Source: Bacteroidetes bacterium GWA2_32_17 (lineage in GTDB: Bacteria > Bacteroidota > Bacteroidia > Bacteroidales > GWA2-32-17). From it: a stretch of 42,218 nucleotides of DNA. The notes under the pieces were generated by a model. The model saw nothing but the letters and a program-made list of their open reading frames with translations, was not told where the DNA came from and did no database searches. Shown in pieces: positions 9,669 to 29,347 of the stretch (positions are counted from its first letter, which is position 1; every line of letters starts with the position of its first letter). The DNA lies in contig MENF01000034.1 of NCBI GenBank assembly GCA_001769035.1, forward strand, positions 1 through 42,218, read 5' to 3'. A program made the translations under genes and the position numbers.

Positions 9669-12173
9669 CTATCTTCCCTTCTTAAAAGCGGCAGCATTAA
9701 AAGATTTAGAAACATCGGTTGGCGAAACATTCATCAAAGCAGATAGCCATATTTCTTCAGGAATAAGATTAAAAGGTTTGATGGTTGACAAAACACCAAG
9801 CACAACAAGATTTGCACTTTTACCAAAAATATCGCCTAAATCATATACTATTTTATTTGCATCAACTTTTATAACATTATATTGCTCAATTAACTTTTCA
9901 ATATCTTCCATTTTTGGATAATCTTCTTTTTTTACATTCAAAGGCAGTGCAATAAAATTATTGATTATTATACTTCCATCTTTTTTTAGTAAGTCGAGAA
10001 ATCCGGGTCGCAGAATTTCACTTATTTCCATAACAATAAGTGCATCAACAGAATGTGGCGCAAAAACAGGAGAAGAAACGTTACCACAGCCAAAAGTAGA
10101 AATTACAGAGCCGCCAAGTTGAGCCATTCCGTGTGTATCGCCCTTAACAATATTTGTATTAAAATAAGGTGTTTGCATTGCCATTTCCGAAAGCACTTTC
10201 CCAAAAAACAAATTGCCTTGCCCGCCAATTCCTCTTATTGCAACCCTTAATGATTCGGGAAGATTTTTAATTTCAATATTGTCTGTTTTTATTATTTCAG
10301 GAATGTTCAAAGATTGGGCTTTTATTTCTTTTGCTTTTACGGATTCGTCCATATATACAATTGCATCGAATGGGCAACGTTGCATACATACAGGTTTGTG
10401 TGAGCCGCAATTAGAACATAATGCAGTGAAATGTGGTAACTTATTTTCGTCCAATTCAATTCCGGGACACATATTACACAAACCACAATTTTTACATTGA
10501 GCGTAGTTGATTTCTACTTTCCTTATTTTGTCTTTTATTGGAATATCGTGAATACATGGACCTTCAAAAATTAAAGTAGAATAAGTGCCTTCTTCTGCAA
10601 GTTTTAGGGCTTTTAATAATTCATCTTCAACTTCTTTTAAGTTGTACGAATCAATAACAATAGTTCTTCCACCCTCCGCTTCTAACGCTCTTTTTAAACT
10701 AAATCTGTGAGGACGTCCTTCGAGATTAAGTTTTGAACTTGGTGCAGGTTGTCCGCCTGTCATAGCAGTTATGTAGTTATCAAGTATTACTTTAACTCCG
10801 GGAATATTTCTAAAAACAGAATTTCGGGTAGAATCCAAACCCGAATGACATTCGGTTGAATCTCCAATCACGCTAATTACCTGTCCTGCCATTTCGGGAT
10901 GCGAAAGAACAAAACCCTGACGCATAGAATCAGAAGCACCCATGCACGAAACGGTATCAATGCCATTGAGGAAATATAAAAGAGTAGAACAGCCAATATC
11001 GCCGAATGAAGCAAATATTTTTTTCTTTTTTTTCAGTTTGTTTATAGTGAGTGCAAATGCTTTGTACTGGCAACCAGGGCAAATAGCAGGTGGTCTGTTA
11101 ATTGGCTTTAATAAAGATACCTTTTTTTCTGTCTTAAACTGAAAAACATTATTTGTCGTTAAAAATTCCAATACATCATCGGGATTCCAGTTTGTTATTG
11201 TGTTATATTCATCTTTGCCAATTAATTTGATATTCAACAAGCTAATTTTTTCTTGCAGGAATTTGTCGCCATCTTCAATAATAAATAGTTTACCTTTAAT
11301 TTTTTTAGCAAACACTTTTATTTTATTTTCAGGAATTGGATTTGCTATTGCCAAAGAAAGAATAGAAGGATTTAATCCGGCAATTTTTAACGCTTCTTTT
11401 ACAATTATTTCGGCTTCTCCATTTACTATAACACCCCAGTCATCTGTTCCATAAGTTGTACACACAAGTTCAGAATTTTCGCTCCATTTCTTAATTCCAG
11501 GAATTCTTTCCTGAGTTACCTTGTTATAATTTGCTCTGGCTAATCCAGGTAAAAGCATCCATTCTTTTAAATTTTCAGGAAGAACTCGTGGTTCAACTTT
11601 TCGTGAATCTTTAGTAATAATTAAAGCTTCGGAGTGTGCAAGAATTCCAGAAACTAAGACAATAATTGGTGTGTTGAATTTTTTACTTAAGTCGGCAGCA
11701 GTCCATGCCATATTGTACATCTCTTGATGGTTGCGTGGTTCCAGAACAGGTAAGCGTGATGCCGCACAAAAATATCTGGCATCAATAACATGTTGAGTAC
11801 TTGATGGGACATAATCAGTAGCTGCATAAATCACTAAAGCACCAGCTTTTGCTGAAAAAAAAGCAGTTGTTGTAAGTGCATCCCCAGCATGAAAAACGCC
11901 TGGAATTTTCATAGTAACGATAGTATCATCACCGGCAATAGCATGCCCTAAGCCAACAGAAACTGCAACTGCTTCATTTACCGACCATCCAACTTTTATT
12001 TTATCCTGAACAGAAGCCAAGCATTTATCAATCACTTCAGTACTTGGGGTTCCGGGATATCCAGTTGCTGCACGATAACCTGCGTGAATAACACCAAGTG
12101 CGAGGGCAGTATTACCATCTACAATTAGTTTTGTATTTGCGGGAGAATTTACAATTTTATTAAAATCAGACAT
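9669..12173 (-). CDS. fused indolepyruvate:ferredoxin oxidoreductase (IorA-IorB)
   Basis: About 834 residues joining both IOR subunits in one chain. The alpha part has the pyrimidine-binding domain (ATGYPGTPSTEVIDKC near residue 36) and the TPP domain (PPAICPGCQYKAF, FGDIGCSTLLYF, then a GDSTECHSGLDS-type Mg/TPP motif). A double [4Fe-4S] ferredoxin domain follows (CKNCGLCNMCP and CSNCGSHKPVCMQRCPFDAI, about 555-605). The last ~190 residues are the gamma/IorB domain (IRGIGGQGNLFFGKVLSEMA). It decarboxylates arylpyruvates to arylacetyl-CoA and reduces ferredoxin. In this context the likely substrate is indolepyruvate, giving indoleacetyl-CoA, the CoA donor for the CoA-transferase encoded just upstream. 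I chose ATG 12173; an in-frame GTG at 12203 would add ten residues. Confidence 0.92.
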   Translation of the reverse strand: MSDFNKIVNSPANTKLIVDGNTALALGVIHAGYRAATGYPGTPSTEVIDKCLASVQDKIKVGWSVNEAVAVSVGLGHAIAGDDTIVTMKIPGVFHAGDALTTTAFFSAKAGALVIYAATDYVPSSTQHVIDARYFCAASRLPVLEPRNHQEMYNMAWTAADLSKKFNTPIIVLVSGILAHSEALIITKDSRKVEPRVLPENLKEWMLLPGLARANYNKVTQERIPGIKKWSENSELVCTTYGTDDWGVIVNGEAEIIVKEALKIAGLNPSILSLAIANPIPENKIKVFAKKIKGKLFIIEDGDKFLQEKISLLNIKLIGKDEYNTITNWNPDDVLEFLTTNNVFQFKTEKKVSLLKPINRPPAICPGCQYKAFALTINKLKKKKKIFASFGDIGCSTLLYFLNGIDTVSCMGASDSMRQGFVLSHPEMAGQVISVIGDSTECHSGLDSTRNSVFRNIPGVKVILDNYITAMTGGQPAPSSKLNLEGRPHRFSLKRALEAEGGRTIVIDSYNLKEVEDELLKALKLAEEGTYSTLIFEGPCIHDIPIKDKIRKVEINYAQCKNCGLCNMCPGIELDENKLPHFTALCSNCGSHKPVCMQRCPFDAIVYMDESVKAKEIKAQSLNIPEIIKTDNIEIKNLPESLRVAIRGIGGQGNLFFGKVLSEMAMQTPYFNTNIVKGDTHGMAQLGGSVISTFGCGNVSSPVFAPHSVDALIVMEISEILRPGFLDLLKKDGSIIINNFIALPLNVKKEDYPKMEDIEKLIEQYNVIKVDANKIVYDLGDIFGKSANLVVLGVLSTIKPFNLIPEEIWLSALMNVSPTDVSKSFNAAAFKKGR

Positions 12174-12197
12174 AATTGATTTAGGATTTATTATTTC

Positions 12198-12313
12198 GTT
12201 CACTGTTCACTGTTCTACGAATTACGAATTTACGAATTACGAATTAGCTGTTCATTATACTTTGTACTTAATACTTTGTTCATTGTTCACTACCTATTGT
12301 TCACTGTTTATTG
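12198..12313. repeat. ACGAATT / GTTCATTGTTC repeat mosaic, copy A
   Basis: The IOR/CoA-transferase spacer consists of ACGAATT-type tandem units (12214-12246) and the words GTTCACTGTTC and TTCATTATACTTTGTACTTA. The block 12247-12287 matches 15747-15788 with a single-base indel. No coding potential is seen. Confidence 0.75.
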
Positions 12314-13510
12314 TTATACTATTTTATTATTTAATAATTCTTTTATTTGTTCAATATTAAAGCCAGCTTCTTTATATATCTTTTCATTATGTTCGCCCAG
12401 TCGGGGAGCACAGTTTAATGTATAATCTATTTTGGTTAAAAAAGAAGAACTGACTGGTGCAGGAAACAATGAAACCTTATTCCCTGAAGGTAATTGTGTT
12501 TTCAGCATATTTTGTTTTACAAATTCAAGTTTTGCAACATCAGATGTTGAATTTACGGGCGAAACCGCTAATCCTAATTTTGAACAAACTTCAACAAACC
12601 CTGCAGTTGTGTAATTTTTTAATCCTTTTCGGATATCTTTATAAATAGCATTTTTATCATTATTGCGTCCCTGATTTGTTATTCTATTTGTTTTTGTTAA
12701 ATGTTCAAAACCATTAATTTTAGTAAGTTTATCCCATTGCGAATCGTTTCCTATGGCAAGATATATATGCCCATCTTTTGTAGGATAACAATTGCAAGGT
12801 ATAAAACTACGATGTTCATTTCCGCTACGAGTAAATATTTCGGATTCATTTTTAACAAATTCCAATTGGGGAAGTGCAGTAATTAACCATGATGCAGCAC
12901 ATTGTGCCATAGAAATATCAATTTTCTTTCCGTTTTCATTTTGTTCTAACATAGCAATTAATACTTGTGAAAATGCTTCATCGCCAGCTTTTAAGTCAAT
13001 AACAGGTAATCCGCAAAGCATAGGGTCTCTGTCAGGTTCACCTGTCAAAAACATGTATCCTAGCATTGCTTGCATGGCTGGATCATAACCGGCTCTATCG
13101 GGATACTCGGGACCCATCGCTGATATTCCACACCAAATAAGTTTTGGGTTAGCTTTTTTCAACGTTTCAAAATCAATTCCCAGTTGCAAGTACCTTAATG
13201 GCAAGGTATTGCACATAAACACATCCACTTCTAATTCACGAATAAGTTTTCTTAACAAATCCTGACCCTCTTTCTTTTTCAAGTTTAATGTTATAGCTTC
13301 TTTACCAATATTTGGCGGAATATAATATGAGTGTAAATCGTCAATTCCTGTATCTTCGCCTATATACCTGTTTGGGTCGCCACTCTTTGACTTTTCATTT
13401 TCAGCAGGGGATTCGATACGAATTACACGCCACCCTAATTGGACAAAACGTTGTGTAGCATAAGGAAGTGCAAGGGCTTGTTCTAAACTTAAAATTATTT
13501 TATTGTTCAT
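12314..13510 (-). CDS. class III (CaiB/BaiF) CoA-transferase, likely IaaL-like
   Basis: A 398-residue family III CoA-transferase. The nucleotide/CoA fold starts at residue 8 (LEQALALPYATQRFVQLGWR). Other family marks are NLKKKEGQDLLRKLI, GYDPAMQAMLGYMFLTGEP and LPVIDLKAGDEAFSQVL, in which Asp172 aligns with the catalytic aspartate that forms the acyl anhydride. Family members move CoA between carboxylic acids without ATP. In the Aromatoleum indoleacetate system a family III enzyme (IaaL) moves CoA from indoleacetyl-CoA to (2-aminophenyl)succinate. Here the gene sits between the IOR and the mutase, which fits that step. The specificity is inferred from context only. Confidence 0.85.
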   Translation of the reverse strand: MNNKIILSLEQALALPYATQRFVQLGWRVIRIESPAENEKSKSGDPNRYIGEDTGIDDLHSYYIPPNIGKEAITLNLKKKEGQDLLRKLIRELEVDVFMCNTLPLRYLQLGIDFETLKKANPKLIWCGISAMGPEYPDRAGYDPAMQAMLGYMFLTGEPDRDPMLCGLPVIDLKAGDEAFSQVLIAMLEQNENGKKIDISMAQCAASWLITALPQLEFVKNESEIFTRSGNEHRSFIPCNCYPTKDGHIYLAIGNDSQWDKLTKINGFEHLTKTNRITNQGRNNDKNAIYKDIRKGLKNYTTAGFVEVCSKLGLAVSPVNSTSDVAKLEFVKQNMLKTQLPSGNKVSLFPAPVSSSFLTKIDYTLNCAPRLGEHNEKIYKEAGFNIEQIKELLNNKIV

Positions 13511-13552: not shown

Positions 13553-13957
13553 TTACTTTAAATTAACTATTCTTTTATAATGTAAATTTCTCGGAGCAAA
13601 ATATGATAGAATTCCAAGTTTAAGATTATTAGAAACTAAATATTCGTAAACTTGGTCAATATGTGCTTTTACAAATCTGTTTCCTTTTTTTAATTCCAAA
13701 ACGATTTTATCTTCAATTATAAAATCAAAGAAACCGCTTCCAATTTTTTCACCTTTAAATTTGAGTGGATAATATTTTTGCTCAATGAATTTTAAACCTG
13801 CGTTCTTCAAAGCAATCGCAACAGCTTTTTGATAAATCTTTTCAGCGTGCCCATATCCAAGTTCATTATACACTTCAAACAATATCCCAATTATCTGATA
13901 ACATAACTCTGGATAAACTAAATCGGCTCTATGAATTATCGGCTCTTTCATTCCCAA
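13553..13957 (-). CDS. GxxExxY family protein (PD-(D/E)XK-like)
   Basis: A 134-residue protein of the GxxExxY family. The namesake motif is GHAEKIY (about residues 36-42). A nuclease-like core FFDFIIEDKIVLELKK (about 77-92) has the D...ExK spacing of the PD-(D/E)XK superfamily. The biochemical role of this family is unsettled. It is the only gene in the operon with no obvious metabolic job, and repeat DNA of the ACGAAT family lies on both sides (13511-13546 and, in opposite orientation, 13957-13979). It looks like an insertion between the CoA-transferase and mutase genes. The start could also be the Met two codons later. Confidence 0.85.
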   Translation of the reverse strand: MGMKEPIIHRADLVYPELCYQIIGILFEVYNELGYGHAEKIYQKAVAIALKNAGLKFIEQKYYPLKFKGEKIGSGFFDFIIEDKIVLELKKGNRFVKAHIDQVYEYLVSNNLKLGILSYFAPRNLHYKRIVNLK

Positions 13958-13977: not shown

Positions 13978-15585
13978 TTAGAAAAAGATTGGTTCTTTAT
14001 ATTCTCCATAAACTTCTTTAAGCACTTGAATTATTTCACCAACGGTTGCATATTCTTTTACGGCAGCAATTATTGAAGGCATAAGGTTTTGAGCATTTTG
14101 TGCATCATTTCTAACAGTTGTTAGCAAATCTTTTACTTCATCATTATTTCGAGATTTTTTTATAGCGTGTAGCTTTGTGATTTGCTTGTTAGCAGCTTTT
14201 TCATTGTATTGATGAAAATCAACTGGTTTAACTTCTTCTTCTTTGGTATAAATATTTAAACCAACCTTTGCAACATCACCTCGTTGAATTCCCATTTCTC
14301 TGATATAAGCTTGTTTGGAAACAGATTCTTGGATTTTTCCTGTAGCTACGGCATTAATAATTCCTCCCCATTCATCAACCTTTTTCATTTCTTCTTTAAT
14401 CTCTTTTTCGAAACGGTCTGTCAGAGATTCAACATAATATGAGCCTCCAAGTGGATCAACCGTATCGCAGATACCCATTTCGTGAATAAGAATCTGCATT
14501 GTTCGAAGAGAAAGTTCAGCAGCTTTTTCGGTTGGAATTGTATAAGCCTCGTCGTAACTACAAAGTGCCATAGTTTGTGTACCTGAAAGAGCAGAAATCA
14601 GAGCATAATATGCACTTCTAATAATATTATTTTCTGGTTGTTCTTTAGTAAGACCACCACCTCCTCCACCAGCAATCATTCTTAACCAGCATGAGTTATC
14701 ATTTTTTGCTTTATATTCTTCACGAATAATTTTAGCCCATAACCTACGTCCTCCCCTGAATTTTGCAATTTGTTCAAACATATTACCATAAATATCAAAA
14801 TTGAATGAAAGGCGTGAAGCAAACTCGTCAATGTCGATTCCTCTCTGAATCGCACCATCGGAATAGGCTTTGGCAATACAGAAAGCATATGCCATTTCCT
14901 GAATAGGATTGGCGCCACTTTCTCTTATGTGGTATCCGCAAACACTGACAGGACTGTATTTAGGAATATTTTTAGCACAATACTCAATGGTATCGATTAC
15001 TAGTTTTACCGATTTATCTACAGGAAAAATCCATGTTCCGCGACCGATAAATTCTTTAAGAATGTCATTTTGTGCAGTACCTCTCAGGTTTTTAATATCG
15101 TATCCCCATTTCTCTGCAAGTGCGATATACATGGCTATAAGAACAATGGCAGAACCATTAATGGTAAGAGAAACAGTAATTTTGTTAAGGTCAATATTTT
15201 TAAATGCAATTTCAAAATCTTCAAGGGTATCAATGGTCATTCCAACTCTTCCGATTTCACCAAATGCTCGCTGGTCATCTGAATCCAAACCACATTGTGT
15301 TGGAAGGTCGAATGCAACATTTAAACCTGACTGACCATTGTTAAGAAGGAAATGAAACCGTTCATTGGTTTCCTCAGGAGTTGCAAATCCAGCATACTGA
15401 CGAATAGTAAAAGGACTATTGCGATACATCAATGAATGGATACCGCGTGTAAAAGGATATTGACCTGGAACTTCATTTTCAATTTCTTTACTAACATCTT
15501 TTTGAGTGTATAAAGGTTCAACCTCAATACCCGATTCAAGGTAAACTGGTTTAATTGTTGTTTTTGATTTTTCAGTAATTGACAT
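13978..15585 (-). CDS. methylmalonyl-CoA mutase-type acyl-CoA mutase, large subunit
   Basis: A 535-residue (beta/alpha)8 substrate-binding subunit without the B12 domain, as in two-subunit acyl-CoA mutases. Family motifs: YPFTRGIHSLMYR (42-54), FTIRQYAGFATPEETN (59-74), FDLPTQCGLDSD (92-103), GTAQNDILKEFIGRGTWIFP (169-188), SVCGYHIRESGA (214-225), DPLGGSYYVE. Against P. shermanii MCM, Gln197, Arg207 and His244 are kept as Gln172, Arg182 and His219, but Tyr89 is His50. The RTHSQTSGWSLT block is replaced by a Gly6 run (306-311). The kept Arg suggests a CoA ester with a free carboxylate; the changed pocket argues against plain methylmalonyl-CoA. Context suggests (2-aminophenyl)succinyl-CoA to (2-aminobenzyl)malonyl-CoA (IaaGH-like). 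Confidence 0.88.
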   Translation of the reverse strand: MSITEKSKTTIKPVYLESGIEVEPLYTQKDVSKEIENEVPGQYPFTRGIHSLMYRNSPFTIRQYAGFATPEETNERFHFLLNNGQSGLNVAFDLPTQCGLDSDDQRAFGEIGRVGMTIDTLEDFEIAFKNIDLNKITVSLTINGSAIVLIAMYIALAEKWGYDIKNLRGTAQNDILKEFIGRGTWIFPVDKSVKLVIDTIEYCAKNIPKYSPVSVCGYHIRESGANPIQEMAYAFCIAKAYSDGAIQRGIDIDEFASRLSFNFDIYGNMFEQIAKFRGGRRLWAKIIREEYKAKNDNSCWLRMIAGGGGGGLTKEQPENNIIRSAYYALISALSGTQTMALCSYDEAYTIPTEKAAELSLRTMQILIHEMGICDTVDPLGGSYYVESLTDRFEKEIKEEMKKVDEWGGIINAVATGKIQESVSKQAYIREMGIQRGDVAKVGLNIYTKEEEVKPVDFHQYNEKAANKQITKLHAIKKSRNNDEVKDLLTTVRNDAQNAQNLMPSIIAAVKEYATVGEIIQVLKEVYGEYKEPIFF

Positions 15586-15796: not shown

Positions 15797-16189
15797 TTAT
15801 TGTTTATTGTTAGTAGCTGATAGGTTTTTAAAATAAGAAACTACCTCATCAACTTTAGTGCCTGTTGGAAAAACTGCATTTGGTCCAAGTTTTAATAGAG
15901 TTTCAACGTCTTGTGTAGGAATGTTTCCACCAACAACCCAAGGGATGTGTAATTTGTTAGCAATCATAACATCTTTTATTCTTTGGGTTATAATCGCATG
16001 TGTTCCTGATAAAATCGAAAGTCCTATAACGTCTACTTTATTATCAATAGCCATTTTAATAATTTCTTCGGGCGATTTTCTAAGTCCAGTATAAACAACT
16101 TCAAATCCTGCATCTTTTAAAGCATGAGCAAGCACTTTTACACCAACATCATGACCGTCGAGTCCGGGTTTAGATAAAAGTATTTTCAT
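15797..16189 (-). CDS. cobalamin-binding small subunit of acyl-CoA mutase
   Basis: A 130-residue Rossmann-like B12 domain with the base-off/His-on signature DxHxxG (Asp11-His13-Gly16 in LSKPGLDGHDVGVKVLA), the SxL motif (Ser58-Leu60) and Gly87-Gly88, all expected for adenosylcobalamin mutases. It pairs with the large subunit encoded just downstream to make the active holoenzyme; His13 would be the lower axial cobalt ligand. Its size matches the separate small subunits of isobutyryl-CoA- and IaaGH-type mutases. The reactivating G-protein chaperone (MeaB/ArgK type) is not in the window. Confidence 0.93.
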   Translation of the reverse strand: MKILLSKPGLDGHDVGVKVLAHALKDAGFEVVYTGLRKSPEEIIKMAIDNKVDVIGLSILSGTHAIITQRIKDVMIANKLHIPWVVGGNIPTQDVETLLKLGPNAVFPTGTKVDEVVSYFKNLSATNNKQ

Positions 16190-16219
16190 TTATTTATATT
16201 TTATTAATTAGTTCAAATT

Positions 16220-16440
16220 TAGTAATTTTATTGTTATAGAATAGTCATACATTGTTTATAGTTCATTGCTAAGTTGTTCTTTACGAAATACGAATTTTAC
16301 GAATGCACGAATTAACTATTCATAGTTCACTGTATAACTCCCCGCATTCTAAACTCCCGCAACAATTGGGGGACAAGCTCTAAAGGACACAACATTCATA
16401 TACTTTGTACTTTATACTTTGTTCATTTTTTTACGTTTAT
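16220..16440. repeat. mixed intergenic repeats
   Basis: The spacer upstream of the small mutase subunit has one GTCATACATTG unit (about 16250), an ACGAAATACGAATTTTACGAAT copy (16281-16313) and TACTTTGTACTTTATACTTTG (about 16400). It belongs to the same families as the other spacers of this operon. Confidence 0.6.
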
Positions 16441-16443
16441 TTC

Positions 16444-17568
16444 TTATTCTAATTCTTTAGCAATATTAATTTTTAAGATTTCTGAAGTTCCACCACCAAT
16501 TAAAGTAAAACGGGCATCTCTTAAATATCTTTGTAACGGATAATCGTTTGCATAACCATACGATGCAAGTACGCGTGATGCAATGTCGCAGATGGAATTG
16601 GCACATTCGGAAGCATATAATTTTGCAATCATGGCTTCTTTTCTGCGTGATTTGTTATCGTCGCTAAGTGAAGCTGCATAAAGTGTATAAAGCTTAGCTG
16701 TTTGGAGTTGAACATCCATCTCGGCAAATTTCATTTTAATTGCCTGAAATTTATAAATTGGCTGACCGAATTGTTTTCTTTCTTTTGCATATTTTAAAGC
16801 ATCTTCAAAAGCTGCAGTGGCAACGCCAATAGAAAGAGCAGCTGTCATAATCCTGATTTCAGCAAGAATCTCAGTTAAATATTTTGTTCCATCACCGAGT
16901 TTTCCTAAAAGGTAATTTATTGGAAGTTTTACATTATCAAAATAAACTTCACTTGTAACAGAACCCCTTACACCAAGTTTTTCAATAGTTTTCCCGATTT
17001 TAACTCCTTTTAATTTAGCAGGAACAAAAAAGATGGAAAGCCCTTCAGCGGTATCAGTTTTTGCCAATACGGTAAAAAAATCAGCAACGGGTGCAGATGT
17101 AATCCAGGTTTTCTGACCTTCGAGAATAAAACCATCATCCATAACTTGTGCTTTACTTTGTATTCCAAATAAATCACTACCAGCATTAGGTTCTGTCATG
17201 CAAATACCACCAATTTTATTTCCTTTCAATGCTTCGTTGAAATATGATTTTACTTCATCATCACCTAAACGAAAAAGGAAATACGTTGCCATTAAAGATT
17301 GCATGGTACATGCAGCTGCTAATGAAAGAGAACCGCGTGAAAGTTCGATTACAGCTAAAGTATAAGAAACAATATCCATATTTGTTCCACCTGCTTCTTC
17401 AGGATATCTCATTCCAAAAAAACCTAAATCGCCAACTTCTTTAAACAACTCTTGTGGAAACTCATGGTTCTCGTCAATAGCTTGTGCATTGGGTACTACC
17501 CTCCTATCAACAAAATCTTTAAAGGTTTGCTGAATTTGCTTTTGTATTTCAGATAATTCAAAGTTCAT
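16444..17568 (-). CDS. acyl-CoA dehydrogenase lacking the catalytic Glu (decarboxylating, IaaF-like)
   Basis: A 374-residue acyl-CoA dehydrogenase fold: FAD/substrate motifs CMTEPNAGSD (123-132) and GQKTWITSAPVADFF, then KERKQFGQPIYKFQAIKMKFA and GYANDYPLQRYLRDARF. The catalytic base normally sits in IYEGT (Glu376 of MCAD); here the sequence is IGGGT with Gly359. The alternative site of isovaleryl-/long-chain enzymes (Glu254, just before an Arg) is Ile238. Both catalytic positions are therefore empty. This fits decarboxylating benzylmalonyl-CoA dehydrogenase (IaaF), in which loss of the 2-carboxy group is reported to replace proton abstraction. Predicted reaction: (2-aminobenzyl)malonyl-CoA to aminocinnamoyl-CoA + CO2. 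Its position beside the mutase supports this. Confidence 0.88.
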   Translation of the reverse strand: MNFELSEIQKQIQQTFKDFVDRRVVPNAQAIDENHEFPQELFKEVGDLGFFGMRYPEEAGGTNMDIVSYTLAVIELSRGSLSLAAACTMQSLMATYFLFRLGDDEVKSYFNEALKGNKIGGICMTEPNAGSDLFGIQSKAQVMDDGFILEGQKTWITSAPVADFFTVLAKTDTAEGLSIFFVPAKLKGVKIGKTIEKLGVRGSVTSEVYFDNVKLPINYLLGKLGDGTKYLTEILAEIRIMTAALSIGVATAAFEDALKYAKERKQFGQPIYKFQAIKMKFAEMDVQLQTAKLYTLYAASLSDDNKSRRKEAMIAKLYASECANSICDIASRVLASYGYANDYPLQRYLRDARFTLIGGGTSEILKINIAKELE

Positions 17569-17580
17569 TTTACTTTGTAG

Positions 17581-17988
17581 TTAATCAGGAATGACTGCTG
17601 TAGTTTCTATTTCAATTAATGCCGGATGATCTAATAAATCAACAACGAATATCATGCTCATACATGGGTAATGATTTCCCATTATTTCTTTCCAAACCTT
17701 TCCTAAATCTCGTCTAGATTCAAGATACTGGTTTCTATCTTTGCAGAAACAAGTCATTTTAACAATATGCTCTGGTTTTCCGCCAGCTTTTGTAATAACT
17801 GCAATAATATTTTTTAATGCCTGTTCAAATTGTGGAATTAATTTATCGCTATTAAATTTTTCATTCGAATCCCAACCTACTTGACCACCTAGATAAAGAG
17901 TTCGGCCTTTTTGAGCAAGGATTCCATTAGAATATCCTTTTGGTGATGGCCAGCCATCGGGAAGAATTGTTTCGTGTTTATTGTTCAT
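17581..17988 (-). CDS. RidA/YjgF/UK114 family protein without the deaminase Arg
   Basis: A 135-residue chorismate-mutase-like RidA fold. It shows GYSNGILAQKGRTLYLGGQVGW at the N-terminus, the central QFEQALKNIIAVITKAGGKPEHIVKMTCF, and the family tail ALIEIETTAVIP. The arginine that binds the substrate carboxylate in RidA (Arg105 of E. coli, in PARSC) aligns with Met110 (PCMSM), so 2-aminoacrylate deaminase activity is unlikely. It is 12 bases upstream of the dehydrogenase gene and in the same operon. It may handle a ring-opening or imine intermediate, but that is a guess. Confidence 0.85.
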   Translation of the reverse strand: MNNKHETILPDGWPSPKGYSNGILAQKGRTLYLGGQVGWDSNEKFNSDKLIPQFEQALKNIIAVITKAGGKPEHIVKMTCFCKDRNQYLESRRDLGKVWKEIMGNHYPCMSMIFVVDLLDHPALIEIETTAVIPD

Positions 17989-18064
17989 TATTTAAAAAGT
18001 TCAAAGTTAAAAAAAAGTTTATTGTTATATGTTAAAAAAGTTCATTGTTCTATGTTTATTTTTC

Positions 18065-18095: not shown

Positions 18096-18134
18096 ATAAA
18101 ATATTGTTTCATTGTTCTATGTTAAAAAATGTTT

Positions 18135-18230: not shown

Positions 18231-19973
18231 TCATTGTTTTTTGGTTCTTAATTTATTTGTTTCAATTATATCAATTTCAAAACTTTCATTTTTAAAGATA
18301 ACGCCATATTCTTTAGCTGCCTGAGCTTTTGTAACTATTTCGTTTTGAACATCTTGTTGGACACTATTAACATCTCTTTCTTTTGGATTTCCATATCCTC
18401 CTCCTCCTCCTGCAATTTGTTTATAAACAGTTCCATCAGGGATACTTTCAATTAAATCTTTACTTAAAGGTGTATGAAGTTTTCCATCGGGATACTTTAA
18501 ATTAATACTGTTCAAAATACTTCCTTTTCCGCCAAATAAACCATAATTTGATTCTACATCACCATCTCCAAAAACCACCATTGTGGCATTGTCGCCACCC
18601 ATTTTAATAAAAGTTTCAACACCTAATCCACCTCTCCATTTTCCAACCCCGCCCGAATCAGTAAGAAATTCGTGTTTTAGTATCTGATGTGGCGTTTGTT
18701 GTTCGTACATTTCATAGTCCTGGTCGAGAAGTCCGCCCGAAGCATCAATCATTCCAATGTGGTCGTATCCGTCATCGCCTTGTAATGCACCGGAACCACC
18801 TTTTAATCCCATAAAGCAAATGTCAACGTATTTTTCGTTTGTTCGTGGGTGTTTCCCGGTAAAAAGAGAACAAAGCAAATGATTCCATCCGGCAGTAACC
18901 CTGTTGGGCATGGCAGGACCGAGTGCTTTAAAAATAGAATCGGCTATCTGTGGACATAAATGATTTCCGAAAGTAGTTGCTTTGGGATAAGACGCGTTTA
19001 GAATAGTTCCTTCGGGAACAATATAAGTTAATGGCTTTATCATTCCTTCGTTGTGAGAAATATCGGGATTAACCATTTGTAAAAAAGTAAGAGTAATTGC
19101 CGAACATGACGAAGTATATGTTCCGTTAACAAAGCCATTAGTCTGAGGAGAAGATTCTGAAAAATCGAATGTAATGCTCTCATCCTCAACAATAATTTTT
19201 GCTTTAATTTCGAATTCTGAACCCAAATGTTTGCCATCGTAATATACCTTACTGCTTCCATAATAAGTACCATTGGGAACAGATGAAATTTCCGAACGCA
19301 TCATCTTTTCAGTACTTCCGAATAATTCCAATTTATGAGCTTCAAAACATTCAATTCCATATTTAGAAATCAATGTATTTAACCTTCGTTCACCAAGCGT
19401 GCATGCACCAATCTGTGCTTTAATATCTTCCTGCACCATGATTAAGCGAATATTAGCAAAAATTAAATTCCATACATCCTGACGCAACACTCCTTTTTCG
19501 TATAATTTAACTGCAGGAATTCGCAATGCTTCCTGCCAAACCTCTGTTGCATTTGGGTTGTATCCACCCTGAACAGCACCACCAATATCTGCCTGATGTC
19601 CCTTCGCTGCTGACCAGCCCACTAAAACATCATTGCAAAATATAGGTTTAAAAATAGCAACATCGTTATTCTGATTACCCATCGAAAACACGTCGTTATG
19701 AATAATAACATCGCCCGGAAAAATATTTTTACCGTATTGATTAATAATAACTTTACAAACAGGACCTAAAGAAAAACTTAAGATTGGAAGATTTTCGGTT
19801 TGCTCAAGCATATTTCCTTCTGCATCATATAAACCTGTTACAAAATCTTTTGCTTCGCACAATATTGGTGAGCGTGTAGTTTTTGTAAGCGAAATGCTCA
19901 TTTCATCGGTAATTGACCGAAAGGCACGCTGAAAAATGGAAAGGAGAATGTTATCTATTTTTATTTCAGACAT
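18231..19973 (-). CDS. hyuB: hydantoinase/oxoprolinase subunit B
   Basis: A 580-residue HyuB family protein. Marks include FVTGLYDAEGNMLEQTENLP near residue 44, the metal-binding-type stretch GDVIIHNDVFSMGNQNNDV (about 102-120), GHQADIGGAVQGGYNP (about 140), a C-terminal GGLGVETFIKMGG block and the Gly-rich IAGGGGGYGNPKERD end. It forms a complex with HyuA, encoded 3 bases upstream. Together they hydrolyse a cyclic amide with ATP, as hydantoinase, 5-oxoprolinase and acetophenone carboxylase relatives do. In the proposed pathway the pair opens the lactam ring of 2-oxindole-3-acetate to give (2-aminophenyl)succinate. Confidence 0.92.
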   Translation of the reverse strand: MSEIKIDNILLSIFQRAFRSITDEMSISLTKTTRSPILCEAKDFVTGLYDAEGNMLEQTENLPILSFSLGPVCKVIINQYGKNIFPGDVIIHNDVFSMGNQNNDVAIFKPIFCNDVLVGWSAAKGHQADIGGAVQGGYNPNATEVWQEALRIPAVKLYEKGVLRQDVWNLIFANIRLIMVQEDIKAQIGACTLGERRLNTLISKYGIECFEAHKLELFGSTEKMMRSEISSVPNGTYYGSSKVYYDGKHLGSEFEIKAKIIVEDESITFDFSESSPQTNGFVNGTYTSSCSAITLTFLQMVNPDISHNEGMIKPLTYIVPEGTILNASYPKATTFGNHLCPQIADSIFKALGPAMPNRVTAGWNHLLCSLFTGKHPRTNEKYVDICFMGLKGGSGALQGDDGYDHIGMIDASGGLLDQDYEMYEQQTPHQILKHEFLTDSGGVGKWRGGLGVETFIKMGGDNATMVVFGDGDVESNYGLFGGKGSILNSINLKYPDGKLHTPLSKDLIESIPDGTVYKQIAGGGGGYGNPKERDVNSVQQDVQNEIVTKAQAAKEYGVIFKNESFEIDIIETNKLRTKKQ

Positions 19974-19976
19974 TAT

Positions 19977-22118
19977 TTAAACGTTATTTGATATTAGTTT
20001 TTGAGTTGAAATATTTTTTTCGAAGCCATTTGGCATAAGAAATTTATTATAAACAACAAAGCAGCCACCAATTCCTGTTTCGCAATTATAAGAGCCACCA
20101 ATAAAAATAGTTGTATTAATTTGCTCAATTAGAGCAGGACCTTCAATTTTAAAATTATTGAACAAAATATCACCATCATAAACTGGTACTTCTTGCATAG
20201 AATCAGTTTCAGGAATATAAGCTGGTCTTCTACATTTTAATGCTTGTTCAAGACTTTCGGCGCCTTTAATTTTATTTCCCGAAAGTGATTGTGGCTTTTC
20301 GGTAACACCCACTGCTCTTAATCTTACATTGATAATTTCTAGTTCTGTACCTTCATTTTTTAGTTCATAGCCATATTTACGGTTATGTTCTTTATGAAAT
20401 GCCTCAATAATTGAAGCGGTATTGAATTCGTTAATATCTTTCATTAATACTTCAAGTGGAACTTCGTGGAACTGCCCAACATAACGAATATCAAGTGATG
20501 GATTATATTCAATTTTTTCTTTGGAAATGCCTTCTTCAGTTAAAGTTCTAATTGCCTCATCTTTCATTTGAGCAAAAAAAGCAAGGAATTTCTTTTTATC
20601 TATTTTTGAGAATCGGGTCATGTACGAGCGAACATAATCGTGCTTAAGATCACCAAGAAGCATTCCTGCTGCGCAAAAAATAGAGGCAACATCGGGAACA
20701 ACGAACATAGGAATTTCCAATTCCCTGCATATTTCGCCTGCATGAATAGAACCGGCACCACCGGCACAGAGCATTAAAAATTCTCTGGGGTCGTAACCTC
20801 TTTCAACCGAAACCTGGCGAACACCCTGAGCCATATTCATATTTATTACACGATACATTCCGGCAGCCGTTTTCATGGCATCAAGACCAAGAGTTATACC
20901 TAATGTTTTTTTAGTAAGAACAATAGTTTTTTCTTTATTCAGAATATATTTTCCGCCGGCAAAAAAATTCGGGTCAAGATAACCGAGAATTAAATCGGCA
21001 TCGGTACATGCAGGTTCAATTCCATCTCTGTTATAAGAAATTGGACCGGGTAACGAGCCAGCACTTTTTGGTCCCATCTGAAGCAAATCTCCTTTATCAA
21101 TCCAGCCAATACTACCACCACCAGCTCCAATTGTAACAATATCTAATGTTGGTAATGCAATTCTGTGCCTATCAATACTTCCATCGGTACTTGTAACACA
21201 TTTTCGATTAACAACTAACGAAGCATCGAAACTTGTACCACCCATATCCATTGTTATACAATTATCGAAACCTAAAAGTTCAGCATAATAGGCACCGGCA
21301 ATAGGAGCTGCTGCGGGACCGGAAAGAACTGTAACAGCAGCAATTTTTCGAGCAACATCAGGTGTTACCACCCCGCCGTTCGACTGCATAATCATTAGTT
21401 TACCATTAAAGTTGATGTCATATAATTTACACAACAGTGCTTCGAGATATTTGGCGATAACAACACCAATATAAGCGTTGATGCAGGTTGTGCTGACTCT
21501 TTCGTAAAAACGCACGGAAGGAAGGACTTCATAAGAACCGGAAATAAACAAATTGGGTAAAGCTTTTCTTAAATATTCAGTTGCAATTTTTTCGTGCTCG
21601 TTATTAAGATAAGAATTTATAAAACAAATTGCAATTGCCTTTACTTCCTCTTTCTTAAGCTGTTCAATTATTTTGTCAAGTTCTGAAGTTTTTACAGGTA
21701 AAATTGAGTTACCTAAAGCATCAATTCTTTCATCAATGGTAAATCTTAGATGCCTGGGAACTAAAGGTTTTACATTCTTATAATGATTATTATACCGTTC
21801 TTCACGAATACCCCGGCGCATTTCCAAAGCATCTCTAAAACCTTTTGTGGTTATTAATGCAGTTTTTGCTCCGTTCATAGTAAGTAATGCATTAGTTGCA
21901 ACTGTAGTGCCGTGAACAATAGTGTCGATATCATTAATAAAAGAACTTAATTCAAGATTTAATTTTTGGGCAATTTCTTTTATTCCGGTAATAAAACCGA
22001 TGGAAGAATCCTGAGGCGTTGAAAGTGTTTTGTGAATTAATGAAGAGCCGTCGTTACCAACAAGAAAAAAATCTGTAAATGTTCCGCCTACATCAATGCC
22101 TAATTTGTATCCTTTCAT
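19977..22118 (-). CDS. hyuA: hydantoinase/oxoprolinase subunit A (ATP-binding)
   Basis: A 713-residue HyuA family ATPase subunit with two ASKHA phosphate loops: LGIDVGGTFTDFFLVG (residues 6-21) and CITMDMGGTSFDASLV (about 289-304). Between them is VHGTTVATNALLTMNGAKTA and then GFRDALEMRRG. The C-terminal region (from about 500) has the usual beta-rich domain with RYVGQFHEVPLEV. It activates the amide with ATP for hydrolysis by HyuB. Its 3-base spacing from hyuB implies tight co-translation. In this cluster, ATP spent here would be the main energy cost of ring opening. The substrate is inferred from context. Confidence 0.93.
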   Translation of the reverse strand: MKGYKLGIDVGGTFTDFFLVGNDGSSLIHKTLSTPQDSSIGFITGIKEIAQKLNLELSSFINDIDTIVHGTTVATNALLTMNGAKTALITTKGFRDALEMRRGIREERYNNHYKNVKPLVPRHLRFTIDERIDALGNSILPVKTSELDKIIEQLKKEEVKAIAICFINSYLNNEHEKIATEYLRKALPNLFISGSYEVLPSVRFYERVSTTCINAYIGVVIAKYLEALLCKLYDINFNGKLMIMQSNGGVVTPDVARKIAAVTVLSGPAAAPIAGAYYAELLGFDNCITMDMGGTSFDASLVVNRKCVTSTDGSIDRHRIALPTLDIVTIGAGGGSIGWIDKGDLLQMGPKSAGSLPGPISYNRDGIEPACTDADLILGYLDPNFFAGGKYILNKEKTIVLTKKTLGITLGLDAMKTAAGMYRVINMNMAQGVRQVSVERGYDPREFLMLCAGGAGSIHAGEICRELEIPMFVVPDVASIFCAAGMLLGDLKHDYVRSYMTRFSKIDKKKFLAFFAQMKDEAIRTLTEEGISKEKIEYNPSLDIRYVGQFHEVPLEVLMKDINEFNTASIIEAFHKEHNRKYGYELKNEGTELEIINVRLRAVGVTEKPQSLSGNKIKGAESLEQALKCRRPAYIPETDSMQEVPVYDGDILFNNFKIEGPALIEQINTTIFIGGSYNCETGIGGCFVVYNKFLMPNGFEKNISTQKLISNNV

Positions 22119-25508: not shown

Positions 25509-25994
25509 ATGTACAATATGGTTGAAATAAATTTTATAATCAATGGAAGTAAAATGACTAAAAGAATTAAACCTTCTACGCTTTTAGTTGATTTTATTCG
25601 CGATGATTTAAAATTAAAAGGAACTAAAGTTGGCTGTATGGAAGGCGAATGTGGTGCATGTACCATAATAATTGATGGAACTGCAATTAACTCTTGTATG
25701 TATCTAGCAATAAACATTAATGGTAAAAATGTAACTACTATTGAAGGTCTTGGTACTGTTGAAAAGCCATTGGATTTAGTTCAGGAAAAAATGATTGCTC
25801 ATGGTGCCATTCAATGCGGATTTTGCACTTCGGGTGTAGTAATGACTACAAAAGCATTTAGCGAAAAATGTAAAAACGAAGATAAAATCCCAACACGTGA
25901 TGAAGTAAAAAAATCGCTTGAAGGACATTTGTGCCGTTGTACGGGCTATATTAAAATAATTGATGCAGCAGAAGCCGTTTATAAAAAACAATAG
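25509..25994 (+). CDS. [2Fe-2S] subunit of xanthine dehydrogenase-family hydroxylase
   Basis: A 161-residue small subunit with the plant-type [2Fe-2S] cluster (Cys43, Cys48, Cys51, Cys63 in GCMEGECGACTI...NSC) and the second, alpha-helical [2Fe-2S] cluster (Cys103, Cys106, Cys142, Cys144 in QCGFCTSG...LCRCTGY). It passes electrons from the molybdenum centre to FAD. It starts an operon with the Mo and FAD subunits and an aminotransferase. The proposed substrate is indoleacetate, hydroxylated at C2 with water as the oxygen source. Confidence 0.95.
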   Translation: MYNMVEINFIINGSKMTKRIKPSTLLVDFIRDDLKLKGTKVGCMEGECGACTIIIDGTAINSCMYLAININGKNVTTIEGLGTVEKPLDLVQEKMIAHGAIQCGFCTSGVVMTTKAFSEKCKNEDKIPTRDEVKKSLEGHLCRCTGYIKIIDAAEAVYKKQ

Positions 25995-26100
25995 TCATAC
26001 AATGGTCAAACAATAGTCATTCTATTGTATGCTCACGTATAACAACTGTATGACCATGAATGACAACTGAATGACTACTTGTATGACAACTGAATGACAA
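25989..26100. repeat. 11-bp phased repeat, two orientations
   Basis: The spacer between the small and large hydroxylase genes is made of 11-base units: AGTCATACAAT, GGTCAAACAAT and AGTCATTCTAT in one direction, then GTATAACAACT, GTATGACCATG, GTATGACAACT and GAATGACAAAG in the other. It is the same family as 732-829, arranged as an inverted pair. Confidence 0.75.
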
Positions 26101-26117
26101 AGTATAACTTTTTAAAT

Positions 26118-28442
26118 ATGGTAAAAGAATTAAAGATAATTGGAAAATCAACTCCAAAATTAGATGCCAAAGAACGTGTTACCGGTAAATCTGTTTATGG
26201 TCATGATATTGAATTACCGGGCATGTTGCATGGAATGATACTTCGTACAAAATATCCTTGTGCTAAAATTATTTCGATTGATGTATCTGAAGCAAAAGCA
26301 TTAGATGGTGTTATGTGCGTAATTACTGCCGCTGATGTTGATGTTAATCAAATCGGATACAAAAGAGACCATCCTATTTTTAAAAGCAAAACTGTTAATT
26401 GCAATCGTGATGAAATAGCTGCTGTTGCTGCTACAACAAAAGAAATTGCAAAAAAAGCTTTATCATTAATTAAAGTAGAATACGAAGTAAAAAAAGGAAT
26501 TTATAACCCTTTTGATGCTTTGAAAGAAGATGCTCCAAAGCTAAATGAATTTTCTCATGATAAATTTGGAAACAAAAATATTGGAGAATCATTTCATTAT
26601 GAGCATGGTAATATTGAAGATCAAAAGAAACTCAGCAAAGTTATAATCACTAAAAGATACGAAACTTCGCGTGTAACACATTGTTGTATGGCAACAAGTA
26701 ACATTACAGCCAGCTATTCAAAACTTGATGGACAACTAACTATATGGGCATCAACGCAAGTTCCTTTTTTGTATCAAAGAGATGTGGCTCATGCATTAAA
26801 AATGGAACCATCAAAAATTAGAATTATTCAACCAATTATTGGTGGTGGTTTTGGAAGTAAGTTAGACATGCTTCCTTTTGAGCCAATTTGTGCATTGCTC
26901 TCAATTAAAACAGGAAAACCTGTGCAACTATTGTACAGCAGAGAAGAAGAATTTATTGCATCTCCTACCCGTCAACCAATGATTATTGACCTTACCACAG
27001 GTGCCAACGAGAATGGAAAATTTACTTTTCGTGAAGTTAAAATAACAATGGATAATGGTGCATACACATCATGGGGTGCTACTACACCTTTTGTTATGAT
27101 GCAAACATATTCCTCATTATACCAGGTTCCTGCATGTTCATTCGATGCAAAAGCAATATACACAAATAATCCGTTTGCCGGCTCATTTAGAGGATATGGA
27201 AATCCTCAAGCTACATATTCTATTGAAACAAATATTGACCTGCTTGCAAAAGAACTTGGAATAGGTAAAGATGAAATAAGATTAATAAATGCAAATTATA
27301 AAGGTGAAATAACCGGACAAGGTTTAAATTTCAAAACTTGCGGAGCAATACCTGCCTTAAAAAAAGTTATTGAAGAAAGTAAATATTCACAAAGAATAAA
27401 ATCCCAAATCTCAAATTCCAAATCCCAAGAATCAGGAAGATATAAAAAAGGAATTGGCTTGGCTTCTATGTTACATGTTGGGGGTGGTGCAAAAATTTAT
27501 CGTTCAGATGGTTGTGGCACCAGATTAAAGATTGACCACTATGGATACCTTACTATAATAACTGGCTCTAACGAAATAGGACAAGGTTCGGAAACAGTGC
27601 TGGCAATGATTGCAGTTGAAGAACTTGGCATTCCAATTGAAAAAATAAAAGTTATTAATACCGATACTGACGTTAAACCATGGGATGTTGGTGTTCATGC
27701 ATCAAGAACCAGTTTTGTTGCAGGAAATTCTTTGCTCGGAGCAATAAAACTTATTAAAGAAAAACTTAATAAACAAGCTGCAAAACTTTTATGTATCGAA
27801 AATTCAGATTTTATTTATCAGAATGGTTCAATGTTTCATGATGACAAAGAAATAAAAATTGATAAAGTAGTTAGGGAAATGCACTTTGGTTTACCAAATG
27901 AATTGTGTGTTGTTGAATATTTTTATGAGCCACCTAGCAGTTTTCAGGATAAAGAATTTAAAGGCGATGTGTCCGGAAACTATGCTTTTGCATCGCAGGC
28001 AATAGAAGTGGAAGTTGATACTTTGACCGGAAAAGTAAAAGTGCTGAATGTTTTTGTTTCGCAGGATGTTGGGCGGGTACTTAACCCTTTGGCATTACAA
28101 GGTCAAATTGAGGGAGGTGTTGCAACCGGAATTGGTTTTGCACTTACCGAAGAAATGATTTACAAAAATGGAATGCTTCTCAATCCAAATTTTCATGGGT
28201 ATAAGTTGCTCACAAGTATGGATATGCCCGATGTTAATTTTTATCCGGTCGAAACTTATGATGATGCAGGTCCTTATGGTTCTAAAGGCGTTGGTGAAGC
28301 ACCGTTAATACCTACTGCAGCAGCCATTGCTAACGCAGTTGCTGATGCAATAGGAATTGAATTTTATTCGCTTCCTTTGTCTCCAGAAAAAATATTGAAA
28401 GCTTTAAAGGAAAAAACTATTAATAAAGTACTAAGTATTTAG
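26118..28442 (+). CDS. molybdenum-binding subunit of xanthine dehydrogenase-family hydroxylase
   Basis: About 774 residues. The N-terminus KSTPKLDAKERVTGKSVYGH opens the small a/b domain. Molybdopterin/substrate motifs are TQVPFLYQRDVAHAL, IIGGGFGSKLDMLPFEPICA, GSFRGYGNPQATYSIE and GSNEIGQGSETV; the catalytic Glu is in KGVGEAPLIPTAAAIANAV near the end. Family members hydroxylate N-heterocycles, aldehydes or aromatic rings. I chose ATG 26118 because the upstream in-frame ATG (26094) lies within the 11-bp repeat array. An unusual low-complexity run, KSQISNSKSQES (27400-27433), appears to come from an AAATCCCAAATC-type repeat in frame. The proposed reaction is indoleacetate to 2-oxindole-3-acetate. 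Confidence 0.94.
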   Translation: MVKELKIIGKSTPKLDAKERVTGKSVYGHDIELPGMLHGMILRTKYPCAKIISIDVSEAKALDGVMCVITAADVDVNQIGYKRDHPIFKSKTVNCNRDEIAAVAATTKEIAKKALSLIKVEYEVKKGIYNPFDALKEDAPKLNEFSHDKFGNKNIGESFHYEHGNIEDQKKLSKVIITKRYETSRVTHCCMATSNITASYSKLDGQLTIWASTQVPFLYQRDVAHALKMEPSKIRIIQPIIGGGFGSKLDMLPFEPICALLSIKTGKPVQLLYSREEEFIASPTRQPMIIDLTTGANENGKFTFREVKITMDNGAYTSWGATTPFVMMQTYSSLYQVPACSFDAKAIYTNNPFAGSFRGYGNPQATYSIETNIDLLAKELGIGKDEIRLINANYKGEITGQGLNFKTCGAIPALKKVIEESKYSQRIKSQISNSKSQESGRYKKGIGLASMLHVGGGAKIYRSDGCGTRLKIDHYGYLTIITGSNEIGQGSETVLAMIAVEELGIPIEKIKVINTDTDVKPWDVGVHASRTSFVAGNSLLGAIKLIKEKLNKQAAKLLCIENSDFIYQNGSMFHDDKEIKIDKVVREMHFGLPNELCVVEYFYEPPSSFQDKEFKGDVSGNYAFASQAIEVEVDTLTGKVKVLNVFVSQDVGRVLNPLALQGQIEGGVATGIGFALTEEMIYKNGMLLNPNFHGYKLLTSMDMPDVNFYPVETYDDAGPYGSKGVGEAPLIPTAAAIANAVADAIGIEFYSLPLSPEKILKALKEKTINKVLSI

Positions 28443-28480: not shown

Positions 28481-29347
28481 ATGTTAGATTTTGATGTAAT
28501 TAGTCCGAAAACAAGCCATGAATTATTTGAAGTTATCAGTAATTCACAAGATAAAAATTATAGATTTGGTGCAGGTTATACAGATTTAATTAATGATTTA
28601 AATAACAATTTGCAACAAAACCTTACTGTTATTAATTTAGCTAAACTAAATGATAATAATTTTAAAGCTATAAATATTAATGAAAATGGAGTACAAATTG
28701 GTGCTTTAGTTACTGCTACCCAGTTGTTGGAAAATAACATTATTCAAAATAATTATCCAGTATTATGGGAAGCAACAAACAGTGTCGCATCGGGGCAAAT
28801 TAGGGCTTCGGCAACAATCGGCGGAAATGTTTGTCAGGCATCACCGTCGGGCGATATGTCATGTGCTTTAGTTGCACTTAAAGCTGTTTGCGAAATTATT
28901 GATTCAAAAGGAAATATACGTGAAGAGAATATTTCTGATTTTTTTCGTGGAGTAAAAAAGACTTCTTTGAAGAAAAATGAAATATTAAGAAGTATTTTTG
29001 TTCCAATTAATATTTCCAAAAATATAAAATCGGGCTATATTAAAGTTGGAACACGTAATTCTATGGAAATTGCAATTGCTTCAATAGCTTACCATTTTCA
29101 AAAGGACGAACAAAATAATGTTATTGATGCAGGTTATGCAATTGGTGCAGTTGCTCCTACTATTGTTTTTACAAAAGATGCTTGCGATTTTATTTTAGGA
29201 AAAAACATTAATTCGCTAAACGAAACAGATGTAAAACAATTTGCAAACTTAATTAAAAAATATGCCAAGCCAATTTCTGATATCAGAGCGAGTGCGTGGT
29301 ACAGAGAAGAAGTGTTAATAAATTTATCAGAAACTATTTTAAAATGA
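28481..29347 (+). CDS. FAD-binding subunit of xanthine dehydrogenase-family hydroxylase
   Basis: A 288-residue CoxM/CutM-type FAD subunit. FAD motifs are YRFGAGYTDLI (about 27-37) and ASGQIRASATIGGNVCQASPSGDMSCAL (about 105-132), with the CO-dehydrogenase flavoprotein C-terminal domain from about 175. It takes electrons from the [2Fe-2S] subunit and passes them to an unknown acceptor. Its stop codon overlaps the aminotransferase start (ATGA at 29344-29347), linking the two by translation. Confidence 0.93.
   Translation: MLDFDVISPKTSHELFEVISNSQDKNYRFGAGYTDLINDLNNNLQQNLTVINLAKLNDNNFKAININENGVQIGALVTATQLLENNIIQNNYPVLWEATNSVASGQIRASATIGGNVCQASPSGDMSCALVALKAVCEIIDSKGNIREENISDFFRGVKKTSLKKNEILRSIFVPINISKNIKSGYIKVGTRNSMEIAIASIAYHFQKDEQNNVIDAGYAIGAVAPTIVFTKDACDFILGKNINSLNETDVKQFANLIKKYAKPISDIRASAWYREEVLINLSETILK

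Follow-up and report, generated by a model that had tools for sequence, protein, structure and literature searches.

Introduction

IaaF is an acyl-CoA dehydrogenase of the bacterial degradation of indole compounds. The enzyme of Aromatoleum aromaticum converts benzylmalonyl-CoA to cinnamoyl-CoA by oxidation and decarboxylation (PMC8360864). That paper describes the motif GGG instead of YEG in all members of the IaaF subclass, and proposes that loss of CO2 from C2 replaces proton abstraction, the three glycines providing a small apolar cavity. It also reports that IaaF accepts a few alkylmalonyl-CoA compounds, with low activity. Both the GGG motif and the idea of CO2 loss were thus already published for this family in 2021 (PMC8360864). 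IaaF does not use ETF, and reduces oxygen in vitro.

Further motifs without a glutamate are described in the same paper for the butyrobetainyl-CoA (SGG) and pimelyl-CoA (YGG) subfamilies, and 3-sulfinopropionyl-CoA desulfinases are described as eliminating sulfite rather than CO2 (PMC8360864). Isovaleryl-CoA dehydrogenase resembles the protein studied here in lacking the glutamate at the MCAD position (GAG), but has a glutamate in helix G, at position 238 of our protein, and has kept proton abstraction (PMC5798300 and PMC12369846). Glutaryl-CoA dehydrogenase shares oxidative decarboxylation with IaaF, but has the glutamate of YEG and a carboxylate-binding arginine in helix E (PMC8360864 and PMC5798300), where our protein has Gly359 and Ala84.

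Here we analyse a dehydrogenase gene in a stretch of 42,218 nucleotides (contig MENF01000034.1; hereafter the window) from Bacteroidetes bacterium GWA2_32_17. Very probably, we are dealing with the iaaF gene (benzylmalonyl-CoA dehydrogenase) of a member of the Bacteroidota, orthologous to that of Aromatoleum, and its product would decarboxylate (2-aminobenzyl)malonyl-CoA without a protein base. To our knowledge, no IaaF member from the Bacteroidota has been assayed.

The window dehydrogenase and its gene cluster

The dehydrogenase is encoded among the following genes, annotated with Pfam and NCBIfam models:

9669..12203, minus strand: indolepyruvate ferredoxin oxidoreductase-like protein, alpha and beta in one chain (TIGR03336 at 359.6 bits, cut-off 650.9, and beta-subunit models, all below cut-off)
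12314..13510, minus strand: family III CoA-transferase, IaaL-like (PF02515)
13553..13957, minus strand: GxxExxY protein (TIGR04256, above cut-off)
13978..15585, minus strand: acyl-CoA mutase large subunit of the IaaGH type, MutL (PF01642 and TIGR00641, above cut-off)
15797..16189, minus strand: B12-binding small subunit of the acyl-CoA mutase of the IaaGH type, MutS (PF02310 and TIGR00640, above cut-off)
16444..17568, minus strand: IaaF-like acyl-CoA dehydrogenase, 374 amino acids, ATG start, with IGGGT (glycines 358-360) and Ile238
17581..17988, minus strand: Rid family protein (PF01042 above, TIGR00004 below cut-off)
18231..19973, minus strand: hydantoinase B/caprolactamase beta-like protein, HydB, candidate ATP-dependent ring hydrolase (PF02538 above, NF050157 below cut-off)
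19977..22118, minus strand: hydantoinase A/caprolactamase alpha-like protein, HydA (PF01968 and PF05378 above, NF050156 below cut-off)
25509..25994, plus strand: Mo hydroxylase 2Fe-2S subunit (xanthine dehydrogenase-type models, below cut-off)
26094..28442, plus strand: Mo hydroxylase molybdopterin subunit (PF02738, PF20256)
28481..29347, plus strand: Mo hydroxylase FAD subunit (xanthine dehydrogenase-type models, below cut-off)
29296..30399, plus strand: HisC-like aminotransferase (TIGR01141, histidinol-phosphate transaminase, above cut-off)

We take the hydantoinase/caprolactamase-like pair to be the ring hydrolase of the iaa gene set, and the Mo hydroxylase presumably catalyses a step of the iaa-type pathway. 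The gene for the GxxExxY protein is inserted in the cluster, and its product probably stands outside the pathway. Genes of the GxxExxY type were found within or near the cluster at differing places in several lineages (the window, L006, L020, L021 and L023).

The hydrolase pair, mutase, CoA-transferase and Mo hydroxylase also accompany iaaF in Aromatoleum. Compared with the Aromatoleum cluster, the window adds the indolepyruvate oxidoreductase-like gene, and its Mo hydroxylase genes lie on the opposite strand. Domain annotation with Pfam and NCBIfam recognised no ETF gene in the window cluster; two EtfA genes occur elsewhere in this genome, beside other dehydrogenases. Likewise, the window cluster contains no acyl-CoA ligase (IaaB), and the Aromatoleum ligase gave a single partial match in the window's genome (157 residues, 38% identity). 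Promoter- and terminator-like sites in 9400-24000 showed no excess over shuffled sequences. By eye, repeated AT-rich words such as cgaattacgaatttacgaatt were seen in the intergenic regions 12200-12310, 15600-15795 and 16200-16440. The window also carries a tRNA-Ser gene with anticodon cga at 8110-8198.

In the window dehydrogenase, Pfam recognised the N-terminal, the middle and the C-terminal domain of the family. Its sequence alone had earlier been read as lacking the catalytic glutamate at both known positions, and the alignments confirmed this. In the alignment with rat SCAD (1jqi), Gly359 of IGGGT faces the glutamate of IYEGT. In a BLASTP alignment with L091, an isovaleryl-CoA dehydrogenase by its best PDB matches, Ile238 faces the glutamate of LDYER, and GGG faces GAG. 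Assignment to the MCAD/SCAD type was therefore rejected for lack of the YEG glutamate, and assignment to the isovaleryl-CoA/long-chain type for lack of the helix G glutamate at position 238. The four other dehydrogenases detected in this genome (E 1e-5) have the motifs GEG, YEG, YEG and YEG.

A structural superposition had also been suggested in the sequence-only reading. What it yielded is a match of the predicted model to the acyl-CoA dehydrogenase fold: the AlphaFold model (pLDDT 96) aligned with human SCAD over 373 residues, with a Z score of 55 and an rmsd of 1.5. A model based on four sequences reached a pLDDT of only 58 and was set aside. None of the NCBIfam models reached its cut-off for the window dehydrogenase; the best was acryloyl-CoA reductase, at 318.6 bits against a cut-off of 640. 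Between the window and L009, amino-acid identity was 91% and dN was 0.07, with synonymous sites saturated so that dS was not computable. Judged from this comparison, the gene looks maintained.

Both glutamates are absent throughout the clade

The loci L009-L088 are the best 80 of 512 confirmed relatives from a scan of named genomes, in which both search patterns covered neither of the glutamate motifs. A search at E 1e-90 matched three of 60 near-relative genomes, including the window's own, and added L006 and L007. The same search matched two of 395 genomes of the phylum, again including the window's own, and added L008. In total, 83 clade sequences were compared, i.e. the window and 82 of the 83 loci L006-L088. 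L079, whose sequence ends before the motif, was left out, and L001 (the window itself) and L089 (the same as L047) were dropped as repeats. The record titles of the relatives listed include Bacteroidetes, Proteobacteria, Planctomycetota, Myxococcales, KSB1 and Krumholzibacteriia.

Gly358-Gly359-Gly360 and Ile238 were present in 83 of 83 clade sequences, drawn largely from the best 80 of 512 relatives, and in this same set Gln90 and Thr242 were likewise invariant. These sequences are not independent, because they were collected by similarity to the window and have a single common ancestor. Hence, their agreement represents one change kept by selection rather than 83 separate changes.

For comparison, we used 59 other dehydrogenase-like genes, of which the window's genome contributed four, Aromatoleum toluvorans 27 and a set of ten genomes 28. 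For L105, L111, L112, L114, L115, L116 and L140, the gene central to the locus was counted. An acidic residue was found at position 359 in 46 of the 59 proteins, and a glutamate at position 238 instead in seven, all of them from a single source genome (G454, Aromatoleum). Four others (L111, L114, L115 and L144) are gapped in one of these columns, and two (L105 and L116) clearly lack both glutamates. Without the seven loci for which the central gene was used, and thus without L105 and L116, the remaining subset of 52 comprised 44 proteins with an acid at 359, seven with Glu238, one with a gap and none without both. Within this sample, open loss at both glutamate sites is therefore rare, although it also occurs outside the GGG clade.

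The two exceptions (L105:1465-2598 and L116:1444-2580, both from Aromatoleum toluvorans) are divergent and also lack the near-constant Arg239, which is present in 55 of the 59 comparison proteins. L105 is 25% identical to the window protein; L116 is 19% identical over part of its length, in a pairwise match that stops short of both motifs. In its Aromatoleum genome, L105 adjoins the dehydrogenase-like gene L114. This arrangement is reminiscent of two-subunit dehydrogenases in which one partner is inactive, and L105 might be such an inactive subunit.

In a tree of 76 sequences, 31 GGG proteins, including the window protein and the Aromatoleum congeners L047 and L050, formed one group separate from 45 other dehydrogenases (support 100/99). 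The trees excluded L105, L111, L114, L116 and L140, sequences shorter than 340 or longer than 430 residues, and near-duplicates of sequences that were kept; the tree for topology tests additionally excluded L161, L144 and eight long-branch sequences. Identity between the window protein and its orthologues in four Aromatoleum species (L047, L050, L052 and L066) is 55%, a figure that refers to congeners of A. aromaticum and not to the A. aromaticum sequence itself. These congeners share with the window protein the clade, GGG in place of YEG, and Ile238. Within the window's own genus, the GGG enzyme of genome G002 is merely 47% identical to that of the window. The sole plasmid-borne relative at E 1e-80 lies on a Massilia putida plasmid (NZ_CP019037.1, 34288-35373), with 41.7% identity over 95%.

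Conservation of the cluster in related loci

Many of the cluster genes recur in the flanks of the related loci. Among the best 80 of 512 relatives, HydB was matched in 72 flanks, MutS in 71, MutL in 70, HydA in 67, the CoA-transferase in 51 and Rid in 24. The 2Fe-2S and molybdopterin subunits of the Mo hydroxylase were matched in 49 and 41 of these 80 loci, and the FAD subunit showed about 30% identity in Aromatoleum-type loci. Matches of MutL and MutS were counted at E 1e-8, so that ordinary methylmalonyl-CoA mutases could be among these counts. The indolepyruvate oxidoreductase-like gene was matched in 21 of the same best 80 of 512 loci, often weakly (71% identity in L009). At least two of HydA, HydB, MutS and MutL were matched in 77 of these 80 flanks, and all four in 60.

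The association also holds at short range. A match to HydA, HydB, MutS, MutL or Rid lay within 1.5 kb in 78 of the 83 clade loci, which include the best 80 of 512 relatives. The same test gave one of 57 at other dehydrogenase loci, with a match to Rid only; these 57 are the members of the 59 comparison dehydrogenases that could be placed by tblastn match.

The flanks of L033, L037 and L073 contain none of the four genes, and their genomes carry a HydB relative at 77, 77 and 66% identity, respectively. The GGG dehydrogenase at L033:9908-11131 has no searched iaa gene within 10 kb. In L087, the mutase genes are 6 kb away and the closest HydB in its genome is 32% identical, and the hydrolase pair of L030 is merely 30-36% identical to that of the window.

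The locus of Aromatoleum evansii (L050) has the same genes as the window, with 63% identity for MutL and 50% for the CoA-transferase, plus an acyl-CoA ligase-like gene and a weakly binding-protein-like gene, both of which fit the published description of the A. aromaticum iaa cluster. Two loci carry a thiolase-type pair between iaaF and the gene for the B12 subunit (L009:11125-13679 and L013:11125-13661), consisting of an HMG-CoA synthase-like protein with a BbsA-like tail and a thiolase. This pair is absent at the corresponding place in the window (16190-16443), and a search of the window's genome gave no more than remote relatives, which lie on contigs C65 and C7. L013, from a Saprospiraceae genome, also has a TrpB-like gene (8146-9510) inside its iaa-type cluster.

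A possible entry from tryptophan

The indolepyruvate oxidoreductase-like protein is a candidate source of indoleacetyl-CoA. In L013, a larger form of this protein is fused to a GltD-like part. The HisC-like product is possibly a tryptophan aminotransferase, and together the two genes suggest that tryptophan enters by way of indolepyruvate and indoleacetyl-CoA. PMC13290082 concerns gut acetogens in which oxidoreductases of this type form indoleacetate, and may bear on a tryptophan-fed route. Our literature search, with most subscription journals outside its scope, gave no recognised report of an iaa cluster or a tryptophan-fed route in the Bacteroidota.

Two clade loci combine a divergent GGG dehydrogenase with an EtfA-like neighbour: L006 (features 734-1861 and 2306-3259) and, from the same genus as the window, L007 (features 1492-2619, 567-980 and 2943-4016; Pfam check on L007). 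Their dehydrogenases are 46-47% identical to that of the window. The mutase small subunit of L007 is 81% identical to its counterpart in the window, and HydB of that genome 87%. In view of this difference in identity, iaaF of L007 looks exchanged for an ETF-linked form. The layout of both loci resembles the iaa operons of strict anaerobes, for which ETF genes are reported in PMC8360864.

Specificity of the missing base

The sequence-only reading had taken the missing base as an independent pointer to a malonyl-type, decarboxylating substrate. Its literature premise, that loss of the carboxy group has been proposed to replace proton abstraction in benzylmalonyl-CoA dehydrogenase, agrees with PMC8360864. 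A malonyl-type, decarboxylating substrate is well supported by the clade and the gene cluster. The missing base itself is neither an independent nor a specific pointer. It is not independent because GGG is a known trait of the IaaF subclass (PMC8360864).

Nor is the missing base specific to decarboxylation, because the desulfinases combine GGG or AGG with Gln238, and because both glutamates are missing in L105 and L116 as well. When 274 genomes were searched with the desulfinase model NF042439, the result was three sequences above cut-off and one partial sequence below it (L158-L161). All four have IGGGT and a glutamine at position 238, and the solved desulfinase 5af7 has AGG and the same glutamine. 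3-Sulfinopropionyl-CoA desulfinases (5af7/5ahs; NF042439) are thus like the window protein in having neither glutamate, in their GGG or AGG motif and in their fold, but differ in Gln238, in an arginine at column 85 and in sulfite as the leaving group. The arginine of desulfinases matters for their substrate. In our trees, the GGG proteins of IaaF and of the desulfinases fell into separate groups, and a common clade was not rejected (p-AU 0.324).

The double absence therefore shows only that no glutamate at the known sites takes the C2 proton. The substrate assignment comes from the clade plus the cluster, not from the motif.

Proposed mechanism and alternative explanations

The window protein has GGG for YEG, sits in the isolated IaaF branch (100/99) and is encoded among iaa-type genes. 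We read it as IaaF because of this clade, the iaa-like gene cluster and the published biochemistry of IaaF (PMC8360864). Under this reading, the neighbouring B12 mutase would make the substrate (2-aminobenzyl)malonyl-CoA, of which the 2-carboxylate would occupy the place of the glutamate side chain, in the cavity of Gly358-Gly359-Gly360. Departure of CO2 from C2 would give the same enolate as removal of a proton, a hydride would pass from C3 to FAD, and the product would be 2-aminocinnamoyl-CoA. No protein base would be required, and its absence would prevent unwanted deprotonation at C2, as proposed by Schuhle et al. (2021). For the window protein, we infer the cavity that holds the carboxylate, the enolate and the transfer of hydride; as judged from its amino-acid sequence, the protein fits every part of the IaaF proposal that sequence can address.

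Two arginines of related enzymes bear on this site. The arginine of glutaryl-CoA dehydrogenase (column 84) is replaced by alanine in 82 and by glycine in one of the 83 clade sequences, drawn largely from the best 80 of 512 relatives, and the desulfinase arginine (column 85) is an alanine in the window. With both absent, neither would hold the carboxylate, which is consistent with an apolar site favouring loss of CO2. L004, a glutaryl-CoA dehydrogenase by its PDB matches, has both Glu359 and Arg84. Assignment of the window protein to glutaryl-CoA dehydrogenase was rejected, as Gly359 and Ala84 mean that both marks are absent.

The enzyme might perform the same chemistry on an alkyl- or arylmalonyl-CoA other than (2-aminobenzyl)malonyl-CoA. 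IaaF takes a few alkylmalonyl-CoA compounds at low activity (PMC8360864), and the window protein differs by 45% from the Aromatoleum proteins. However, the ring-hydrolase pair, the mutase, the CoA-transferase and the Mo hydroxylase all accompany the window gene, and the cluster adds the indolepyruvate oxidoreductase-like gene, so that we consider another substrate improbable. Quite improbable is an ordinary alpha,beta-dehydrogenase in which another acid, most likely Glu237, acts as the base. This residue is present in 81 of the 83 clade sequences, drawn largely from the best 80 of 512 relatives, and the position is acidic in three of the 52 others; among the 12 positions with an acidic residue in 95% or more of the clade, it alone is rare outside. 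L105, which falls outside the count of 52, also has Glu237 and no acid at 359. Yet position 237 is a lysine in L073 and an aspartate in L086. Furthermore, Glu237 is not a mark of base replacement, because in L107, L110 and L113 it coexists with an intact TEG or YEG, in which Glu359 is kept. It lies one residue before the glutamate position of isovaleryl-CoA dehydrogenase, in helix 227-263 of the predicted model, and from the helix phase its side chain would be turned about 100 degrees away. A role of Glu237 as base thus seems unlikely from the sequence comparisons, and the gene cluster gives no hint of fatty acid oxidation.

It is very improbable that the protein is a base-less member of the same fold that releases some other group, as a desulfinase does, even though L158-L161 share IGGGT and have no glutamate at 238, and the topology test leaves room for a clade shared with IaaF (p-AU 0.324). 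The desulfinase assignment was rejected: the window protein scores 222.8 bits against a cut-off of 600 for NF042439, has Ile238 instead of glutamine, and has Ala85 in place of the arginine. The mutase and ring-hydrolase neighbours point elsewhere, and within the window the only sulfur-related domain to be recognised, a rhodanese-like one, lies 14 kb away (31377-32330). The best NCBIfam model, acryloyl-CoA reductase, although below its cut-off, and the presence of the caffeyl-CoA reductase CarC among the best PDB matches would fit an enoyl-CoA reductase that runs the reaction of the family in reverse with ETF. With no ETF gene recognised in the cluster, and with a clade and cluster that are those of IaaF, we regard such a reductase as extremely improbable.

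Implications

The window dehydrogenase provides a clear further example of IaaF in another bacterial group, and a modest extension of the family to the Bacteroidota. New in our analysis are the count of the double glutamate absence against other dehydrogenases, the occurrence in more phyla and the neighbouring indolepyruvate oxidoreductase. GGG alone is unfit for annotating a decarboxylase. As a tentative generalisation, loss of glutamate at both sites together with GGG or AGG may mark members of the fold that never take the C2 proton but release a different group (CO2 for IaaF, sulfite for desulfinases), so that the motif would predict the class of chemistry and not the substrate; equally tentatively, as part of the same proposal, the Bacteroidota enzyme may serve a route fed by tryptophan, with indoleacetyl-CoA made directly by indolepyruvate oxidoreductase, rather than the scavenging of free auxin. 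Dehydrogenation driven by loss of CO2, which has been described but little studied, is probably spread over several phyla, and the clade offers a natural set of enzymes for testing the proposed mechanism.
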